DNA from: Planktothricoides raciborskii GIHE-MW2
GTDB taxonomy: Bacteria; Cyanobacteriota; Cyanobacteriia; Cyanobacteriales; Laspinemataceae
DNA length: 64,000 nucleotides
Reading direction: 5' to 3'
Assembly: GCF_040564635.1 (NCBI RefSeq)
Contig: NZ_CP159837.1
Coordinates: 6,931,001 to 6,995,000, forward strand
A program made the position numbers and the translations under genes. Each line of letters starts with the position of its first letter. The first letter of the stretch is position 1. The notes beneath the pieces are model-generated. The model did not search any database and was not told the DNA's origin. It worked only from the letters and a program-made list of their open reading frames with translations. Shown piece after piece: positions 5,758 to 7,696 of the stretch.

Positions 5758-5840
5758 TTGGTTATTAGTTATTGGTTATTGATTATTGGTGATTTGGAAA
5801 AAACACTAATAAATCATAACCAATAACCAATAAGCACTAA
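5758..5840. repeat. Inverted pair of TTGGTTATT / AATAACCAA microsatellite arms
   Basis: A T-rich heptamer-like repeat (TTGGTTATT units) is followed about 30 bp later by its reverse complement (AACCAATAACCAATAA), so the spacer can fold into an AT-rich hairpin. It sits between two convergently oriented units, the DUF4139 gene and the nuclease gene at 5899-6357, and could act as a weak bidirectional terminator; that is inference. Confidence 0.6.
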
Positions 5841-5898
5841 CGATAGATTGGCAATCATATATGAAAAACTCAACCGGAGATCCGAAAATTCCATCAAG

Positions 5899-6357
5899 CT
5901 AATCAGCCTGTGATTTGACAATTCCTTCTAATTTTTCCAGCGGTGGAAGATATTTCAAAGCATTCTGAAAAGCTTCTGTATTTTCAAACAAATCTTGCAA
6001 AGTTAATAGATGAATCACAACCTGATGAATATCTGGATGACCATAAAGACGTTCTTTGAATGTTTCTTTATAGCCCACTCCAGATAACATAATACTTACA
6101 TCTGCTTGATGATATTTGATATCTGAGTAATATTTACGAGCTTCATCTTTATCTAAAGGTTTACTGCTTAATTTAGATTGAAAATGAATGTTTTTGCCTT
6201 CAAAGTAAGTTGAACCATCAACACCGTCGTCCGGTCCTTCTGGCCCTGGTGTTAGATTAAGGCAATCTGCAAACTTTTGACCAAGCCTCTGCTTGGAATC
6301 ATTTTCAGCTTGCAGAATCCCTTTGATCAGATAGTAGGTTGTTGGATCTCTGAACAT
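5899..6357 (-). CDS. Small Mrr-like PD-(D/E)XK nuclease candidate, third gene of ParA cassette
   Basis: A 152-residue soluble protein starting at ATG 6357. Residues about 38-62 read GPDDGVDG then, after a short strand, IHFQSKL. This is the Asp ... Gln-X-Lys arrangement of Mrr/PD-(D/E)XK restriction-endonuclease-like domains (the family pattern is G-[RP]-D-[DG]-G-[IV]-D-G followed by Q-X-K). Downstream ADVSIMLSGVGY fits the following core strand. The length is about that of a bare nuclease fold, with no recognition or motor domain. It lies 15 bp after the RHH-like gene, which itself follows a ParA-like gene, so all three are probably one leftward transcript. Its ribosome site is weak, consistent with coupled translation. 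Nuclease activity is inferred from motifs; no methyltransferase is nearby. Confidence 0.55.
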   Translation of the reverse strand: MFRDPTTYYLIKGILQAENDSKQRLGQKFADCLNLTPGPEGPDDGVDGSTYFEGKNIHFQSKLSSKPLDKDEARKYYSDIKYHQADVSIMLSGVGYKETFKERLYGHPDIHQVVIHLLTLQDLFENTEAFQNALKYLPPLEKLEGIVKSQAD

Positions 6358-6372
6358 TTTTCAATTTTTATC

Positions 6373-6810
6373 TCAATTAGAGCTTTTTTTTCTAAGATTC
6401 AAATTCTTTTCATATAAAACTTTAATACCCGCAACAGCATATTTGGCGGCCTCCTCTACTTCTTGCACCCCTGAGTCTTTAAGTTTACTTAATGTTTCCG
6501 CATTGAGCAGCAGGTCATAACCAATAGACCCTAACCGCTTGGGATAATATTGCAAATCTTTTGCCTCAACTCCTTTTTCTTTAGAGAAAAAAATGATGTA
6601 TTGTATGCAAGAATTCAGCATAGTTCTCACAGAAACACCAAATACGTCACAATACTGTTCTACTTTCTGTTTTTGATCTTCAGATAGATAAACTTTTACC
6701 GATGACTCATTCAGACCGGAATCACGTTTATGTAAGCCAGAAGAAACTAAATAGTCTACGGCTCCATTTTCTCTAGCTGATTGTTCTCGATAAATTTTGG
6801 TTGTCATCAT
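6373..6810 (-). CDS. Ribbon-helix-helix-like small protein between ParA and nuclease genes
   Basis: A 145-residue protein starting at ATG 6810 or the adjacent in-frame ATG at 6807, with a good AGGAGG site just upstream. Residues about 36-72 (SVKVYLSEDQKQKVEQYCDV followed by a second helix) resemble a strand-helix-helix DNA-binding unit of the CopG/RHH type; the C-terminal half is helical and charged, with no known motif. Its position straight after a ParA-family gene (22 bp gap) is where plasmid systems carry a ParB or RHH centromere-binding partner. I do not recognise the family; the RHH call rests on pattern and position. It could be a DNA-binding partner for the ATPase, an antitoxin-like regulator, or an adaptor for the downstream nuclease. 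Confidence 0.5.
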   Translation of the reverse strand: MMTTKIYREQSARENGAVDYLVSSGLHKRDSGLNESSVKVYLSEDQKQKVEQYCDVFGVSVRTMLNSCIQYIIFFSKEKGVEAKDLQYYPKRLGSIGYDLLLNAETLSKLKDSGVQEVEEAAKYAVAGIKVLYEKNLNLRKKSSN

Positions 6811-6832
6811 AACCTCCTATTTTACACATAAA

Positions 6833-7474
6833 CTAACTGAGAAGCGAGCTAAAATATTCCTGCAAATTTTCCAAACCTGGATAAGTCCAAATCAGCTTTC
6901 CCTCATCCAAAGCCCTATCTACTTCTTTGTTTAAGTTTTTCATCCGATTTGCTAGATTGTAGTTACTTGGCAAGCGTGATATACTTTGCATTTTTTCATT
7001 AATCTTTTGTTTATATGATCCTAGTGGTACAATTACAACTTCAGGAGTAAAACCGGCAAATTCCTCTAATTTTGAAATTACTGGTAAAGTGTCAGATAAA
7101 CCTTCAATTGCCCAAGGATGCTGGCTAACAGGGATCAACACAACGTCAGGGTAGTTATCGACTATAACTTTAACTGTGTCAGGTAAAGGTGTACTCATAT
7201 CCAGAATAATGTGATCGTAAGTTTGAGTATCCGCTATGCGTCGAATTGGCTCCCGATCGGGATTCCAAATAATTGATAATTGGTTGCTATGCTCTTTCAG
7301 TTGCAAAGGTGTCTGCGCCTTGCTACGAAAATAAAAAAGCCAAGCATTTCTTTGTGTGTCGCAATCAATTAGAAGAATACGACCTAGCTGAGTTGCCAGA
7401 AAACCTGCCAAGTGAACTGCCAATGTTGTTTTTCCAGCACCTCCTTTATGTTGAGTGCAAAGAATAATACTCAA
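6833..7474 (-). CDS. ParA-family (MinD/ParA-like) ATPase
   Basis: A 213-residue P-loop ATPase. Residues 9-16 are KGGAGKTT, the deviant Walker A with its signature lysine, used by ParA/MinD proteins to dimerise on ATP. DCDTQRN (residues 38-44) is the switch I/A' motif and HIILDMS the Walker B strand. The protein is short and lacks the N-terminal HTH of P1-type ParA, so it is of the small type Ib form. The start is TTG 7474, chosen because AGGAG lies 6 bases upstream and the N-terminus runs directly into the first strand. It heads a leftward cassette with an RHH-like protein and a nuclease-like protein. No replication gene or obvious parS is nearby, so this is an orphan chromosomal cassette or a plasmid remnant. 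Confidence 0.82.
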   Translation of the reverse strand: MSIILCTQHKGGAGKTTLAVHLAGFLATQLGRILLIDCDTQRNAWLFYFRSKAQTPLQLKEHSNQLSIIWNPDREPIRRIADTQTYDHIILDMSTPLPDTVKVIVDNYPDVVLIPVSQHPWAIEGLSDTLPVISKLEEFAGFTPEVVIVPLGSYKQKINEKMQSISRLPSNYNLANRMKNLNKEVDRALDEGKLIWTYPGLENLQEYFSSLLS

Positions 7475-7654
7475 TTTAGTCTCCTGATGATAAAGCTATA
7501 GGAATTTGTTCTATTTTACTTGTTCTCGTTGGCATCTGCAAACCCGCCCAATTTATTCCATGAAAATTTGACTTGACTATTAATTCGGTGTTACTTCAAA
7601 GCTTAATTAATTAATATTTTTTATCTGTTACTTGTTATCTGCTACATAGTTTTT

Positions 7655-7696
7655 TGCAACCAATAACGAATAACCAATAACGAATAACCAATGACA
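7655..7696. repeat. Tandem AATAACGAATAACC microsatellite
   Basis: Short tandem heptamer units (AATAACG, AATAACC) upstream of the permease gene; part of the heptamer repeat class seen throughout the window. Nothing else is seen in the 289 bp between the ParA-like and permease genes, which are transcribed divergently. Confidence 0.55.

Follow-up and report, generated by a model that had tools for sequence, protein, structure and literature searches.

A ParA-type ATPase, a ribbon-helix-helix protein and an Mrr-type nuclease in one mobile cyanobacterial cassette: a possible DNA-defence module

Layout of the locus

The stretch of DNA analysed (64,000 nucleotides, referred to as the window) covers 6.93–6.995 Mb of the single 7.2-Mb contig of Planktothricoides raciborskii GIHE-MW2. 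The features of the cassette and of its borders are listed in Table 1. The original prediction had described three tightly spaced leftward genes with gaps of 22 bp (parA/gene two) and 15 bp (gene two/nuclease), accompanied by neither a replication gene nor a methyltransferase; the open reading frames lie exactly as claimed, neither a replication gene nor a cognate methyltransferase adjoins the cassette in the window. Since its neighbours are ordinary chromosomal genes, the window cassette is chromosomal. The closest named relative found was Planktothricoides sp. SR001, with a nuclease 99% identical to that of the window.

Table 1. Cassette genes and border features (window positions)
Feature	Position	Strand	Remarks
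parA-like gene, 213 aa	6833..7474	-	TTG start; Walker A HKGGAGKT
Gene two, 145 aa	6373..6810	-	N-terminal ribbon-helix-helix (RHH), about residues 37-80 (KVYLSEDQKQKVEQYCDVFGVSVRTMLNSCIQYIIFF); putative second, C-terminal RHH
Nuclease gene, 152 aa	5899..6357	-	Mrr_cat core D43-D47...Q60-x-K62, catalytic domain alone
Downstream border	5837..5898	.	match to the slot of G523 (sister species) resumes at 5836
Cassette upstream region, presumed promoter/operator	7475..7681	.	flank match to G523 resumes at 7682
Downstream-border cluster, six TTATTGGTTATT-type repeats	5762..5833	.	
Upstream-border cluster, four TTATTGGTTATT-type repeats	7662..7694	.	

The same genome (G000) holds a second, decayed cassette with a split nuclease frame (G000:C1:6262413-6264049; L024:7387-9049), at a site shared by G407 and G523, where it is found in other states of decay. 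Elsewhere in the window, an AAA ATPase gene (window:22716-24756, minus strand) is apparently frameshifted, with two overlapping open reading frames in different frames that jointly make up one protein.

The three proteins

The window ParA matched Pfam AAA_31 (4e-18), Pfam VirC1 (26 bits; cut-off 24) and NCBIfam ParA_partition (9e-19, yet below the cut-off of that model). With HKGGAGKT as its Walker A and DCDxQ as its motif A', it is the deviant Walker A ATPase that had been predicted. The signature lysine of the Walker A is kept in the window protein and is replaced by S, N, D or G in most relatives, with at least three changes on the ParA tree. McdA type 1 carries serine at this position and yet hydrolyses ATP strongly (PMC6328274, PMC8262871), so that replacement of the lysine does not mean an inactive ParA. 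Its variation inside one ParA family is a natural test of the role of that residue.

Gene two is predicted from profile comparison to carry an N-terminal RHH DNA-binding domain, and the RHH-like fold proposed for it was supported for this half of the protein. Columns 46-98 of an alignment of 40 sequences matched CopG/Arc/ParG/omega over 35 columns with an hhalign probability of 90.8 (against four RHH reference sequences entered by hand); the controls reached at most 3.9 (40 column shuffles) and 0.4 (41 segments of the partner families). CopG was recovered in register, at a weak E of 0.16-0.31, by a PDB profile search independent of the hhalign test, and an AlphaFold2 model of low confidence (three-sequence input; pLDDT 51) has strand-helix-helix at residues 37-78. 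Gene two searched as a single sequence gave no significant match. A second RHH, suggested by eye in the C-terminal half, gained no support from the same hhalign test (1.1).

The nuclease was identified through its family. Mrr_cat (PF04471) was matched by 36 of 45 members (best 6e-6), and the window protein, itself without a match in Pfam, belongs with them by family alignment, in line with the Mrr-type assignment made before. D43, D47 and Q60 are invariant in the alignment, and position 62 is Lys, or Arg in one subclade. The chains, of about 150-160 aa, consist of the catalytic core alone, without a recognition domain. PDB profile searches with the nuclease returned chance matches only; its AlphaFold2 model (three-sequence input) was poor (pLDDT 37), and a structure search with the AlphaFold2 models, poor as they were, gave nothing below E 1. 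The subclade with Arg in place of the catalytic Lys (FQCRL) comprises L031, L033, L074, L075 and L080 (alignment A7).

Conservation and decay

The nuclease served as bait in collecting the loci, so that ParA-RHH pairs lacking a nuclease would be missed, and 53 distinct nuclease loci were examined with their flanks. A parA and an RHH gene, or their remnants, precede the nuclease in unchanged order and orientation at all loci apart from a few that are heavily decayed. The co-occurrence of the three genes expected of a cassette was thereby found across cyanobacteria, and the order parA-rhh-nuc is conserved far beyond chance. The cassette is intact throughout in 34 of the 53 loci and broken in 19.

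Its distribution is patchy. A profile search within the order found the nuclease in 38 of 389 genomes (15 of 149 genera), with a maximum of four copies in one genome; in a phylum-wide draw, 13 of 386 genomes had it. The cassette is mostly chromosomal: a single record among 72,556 plasmid records carries one (Synechococcus elongatus UTEX 3055), and none was found in the phage collections searched. The three genes co-evolve: between the protein identity matrices, Mantel r is 0.84 for every pair, a value reached by 0 of 500 permutations. In close pairs dN/dS is mostly 0.1-0.5 for each of the genes, a few values being higher. Gene two evolves fastest, with a mean identity of 22%, against 40% for ParA and 46% for the nuclease.

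All 44 loci with an intact nuclease also have an intact RHH gene (in L097 by inspection), and 10 of them have a broken or incomplete parA (Fisher p = 0.001; 0.005 without two doubtful cases), an asymmetry that may include assembly errors and related loci. This argues that ParA is not what keeps the nuclease safe, a role that the RHH protein may have; a system that has lost ParA is probably just silent.

At L105 (G518:C3:47398-47532) a nuclease remnant directly adjoins CRISPR-array-like repeats (CTTTCAATGGGGCTGCC...GGGCAGATTGAGAC).

Movement and borders

The cassette is horizontally transferred as one block of about 1.9 kb. In the ParA tree, the clade of the window groups with one sequence from a different family, one from a different order and that of the S. 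elongatus UTEX 3055 plasmid. Between the window cassette and that of L002, 81% identical, homology runs from 29 bp before the start of the ParA domain to 13 bp before the end of the nuclease. The slot between alaS and topA is occupied by the cassette in G022, G450, G436 and G531 and is empty but for about 36 bp in G184 and about 69 bp in G513; the insert of G022 extends from about -157 to +1828. At L028 the insertion cuts short a DUF433 gene, of which relatives have intact copies.

No transposase lies within the block, and neither terminal repeats nor a target duplication were found at the junctions inspected. Of the 25 TTATTGGTTATT-type repeats of the window, 10 sit in the two border clusters; as both borders fall in such clusters, recombination-driven exchange at these repeats is plausible. 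In the f2 genus, a TnpB-like gene and an IS630-like transposase pair directly adjoin cassettes on the nuclease side (L031:6008-7270, L033:6924-7962).

Slot occupants, flanks and exchange of the RHH core

In the sister species G523 the flanks of the window's slot are 96-97% identical and the cassette is absent. The slot holds instead a gene for a 515-aa type II DNA methyltransferase (PADLOC MTase_II, 4e-42; PF01555, 4e-17) and, beside it, a 368-aa open reading frame (L124:3745-4851) containing FDLKVTYL, by eye a likely PD-(D/E)XK motif. The frame had no Pfam or PADLOC match and may encode a restriction endonuclease from a family not yet described. This slot is the strongest single pointer to a defence role. 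Such a replacement, resembling a restriction-modification (R-M) pair, was seen at one of four slots examined.

On the S. elongatus plasmid, which has another ParA gene, the cassette has an Abi_2 gene on one side and, on the other, a C-terminal remnant of a type I restriction (R) subunit. Most cassettes are flanked by housekeeping genes (TPR, RuvX, IGPD and others) and are therefore not generally residents of defence islands; the inventory of flanking genes gave no sign of defence-island enrichment. In PADLOC 2.0 the trio matched no defence model except, weakly, PDC-S02, where the match (0.0016) spans the C-terminal third of the model.

Alleles L088 and L090 occupy one and the same site in related species. 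Most of the cassette is 98-100% identical between them, the exception being the RHH core and linker: a segment of 231 of the 2033 bp, covering the RHH core, contains 42 of the 77 mismatches. Synonymous and non-synonymous changes are both present, which fits import of a diverged segment. A similar trough of identity was found in the pairs L028/L070 and L085/L088. By its sequence pattern, this exchange is predicted to be that of a specificity domain. With the R-M-like pair in a relative's slot and the DNA-binding part exchanged alone, the cassette looks like a DNA-defence system.

Comparison with known systems

No description of the trio was found in Pfam, NCBIfam, PADLOC or the literature searched, which was mostly without subscription papers and preprints; within these sources, the view that no named system has this trio stood. 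Mrr-like and inactive MinD/ParA domains have been reported as effectors of other systems, not as this trio (Kaur et al., 2020; PMC7159879). The nuclease shares with Mrr-type type IV enzymes (PF04471) the D...QxK catalytic core and, in the window, the lack of an adjoining cognate methyltransferase. It differs from them in being the catalytic domain alone (about 150 aa) with ParA and RHH proteins as regular partners.

The ParF-ParG and delta-omega partition loci have the same sequence of ATPase and RHH gene, similar sizes and the ParA motif A' DCDxQ. The cassette, unlike these loci, has a third gene for a nuclease, is mostly chromosomal, and has ParA proteins most of which lack the signature lysine. 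No iteron-like array was found upstream of the window parA, and in a test covering repeats only, upstream 9-mers reached three or more copies in only two of 54 loci, one of them CRISPR-like, so that no centromere-like array was apparent.

In Agrobacterium, the ParA-like VirC1 and the RHH protein VirC2 act with the VirD2 nicking enzyme (PMC8406263). The cassette likewise combines a ParA-like ATPase, which in the window matches Pfam VirC1, and an RHH protein with a DNA-cutting enzyme; its cutter, however, is an Mrr nuclease, and the RHH of VirC2 is at the C terminus whereas that of gene two is N-terminal. No relaxase, oriT or type IV secretion genes were found among the window neighbours or the commonest flanking families. 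McdA is comparable in being a relative of ParA in cyanobacteria that, in type 1, lacks the signature lysine, but the window ParA keeps this lysine and the partner in the cassette is an RHH protein; a McdB-like gene was not found in that place. Type II toxin-antitoxin loci with an RHH antitoxin also have the RHH gene directly upstream of a nuclease, and in the cassette it is never lost alone (44 loci); the third gene, parA, and the separate exchange of the RHH core set the cassette apart.

Interpretation and alternatives

The original prediction had left three options: a partition locus doubling as an addiction or copy-control device, a chromosomal defence module in which the ATPase positions a nuclease, and the relic of an integrated plasmid. 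The R-M-like swap, the empty slots, the horizontal transfer and the exchange of specificity patches favour the chromosomal defence module, of which positioning by the ATPase would be one conceivable part. We lean, by a little, towards a small, horizontally spread and apparently undescribed DNA-targeting defence module with an RHH-addressed, ParA-gated nuclease. The RHH protein would supply target recognition and hold the nuclease in check; the ParA-type ATPase, through ATP-dependent DNA binding, would license the RHH-nuclease complex or load it on foreign DNA, which the Mrr domain would then cut. The trigger could be a foreign feature: a modification, the state of replication or a sequence that the host lacks. 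If the trigger is foreign, a methyltransferase is unneeded, and the cassette would act in the manner of type IV or other restriction without a methylase, with separate chains for recognition, switching and cutting.

A bolder version is offered tentatively, as a possibility we would not bet on: that the cassette represents a new class of defence. Its ParA-type ATPase, often without the signature lysine, would be a switch that surveys DNA at the expense of ATP and controls an RHH-addressed Mrr nuclease, re-targeted by swaps of the RHH core. ParA ATPases are, to our knowledge, known for moving DNA, carboxysomes and other cargo, and not for restriction. If the proposal is true, this would be a very small cyanobacterial restriction system, in which partition machinery has been turned into a re-targetable restriction complex. 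The cassette could help to explain transformation barriers, and its small size allows direct testing.

The main rival, which we consider unlikely though worth serious weight, is a selfish addiction cassette that harms cells losing it, with the nuclease as a toxin acting on host DNA, the RHH protein as antitoxin and repressor, and ParA as an accessory. RHH is a classical antitoxin fold, none of the 44 loci with an intact nuclease has lost the RHH gene alone, and the insertions are scattered, multi-copy and decaying among housekeeping genes. Many cassettes have nevertheless simply decayed (19 of 53 broken), and an RHH core that diversifies alone fits changing targets better than an antitoxin; the swap with an R-M-like pair also speaks for defence, although R-M systems can themselves be addictive. 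Competition between replicons is less probable still. The RHH protein would here bind partition or origin sites of incoming plasmids in a decoy partition complex, ParA would engage and the nuclease would cut, making an anti-plasmid device derived from par. ParA beside an RHH protein is indeed the arrangement of plasmid par loci, but no parS-like array lies near the cassette. The many relatives without the signature lysine, like McdA type 1 (PMC8262871, PMC6328274), point to a non-partition cycle and suit this reading.

That the cassette is itself a chromosomal or plasmid partition locus, or a plasmid relic, with the nuclease as a passenger, is improbable in spite of the RHH protein in the ParB position. 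Partition or addiction on plasmids and the integrated relic are alike disfavoured by the one occurrence among 72,556 plasmid records, on a plasmid with another ParA gene, by the lack of iterons, by the clean borders of the unit of about 1.9 kb and by the lack of a replication gene beside the window cassette. The cassettes are mostly chromosomal, at no more than four per genome, and the nuclease regularly follows the other two genes, in loci that were found through the nuclease. All three genes are under purifying selection, which would suit a host regulatory or DNA-maintenance operon unrelated to conflict; we rate this lowest of all, for the cassette occurs patchily, in 38 of the order's 389 genomes, moves horizontally and has often decayed.
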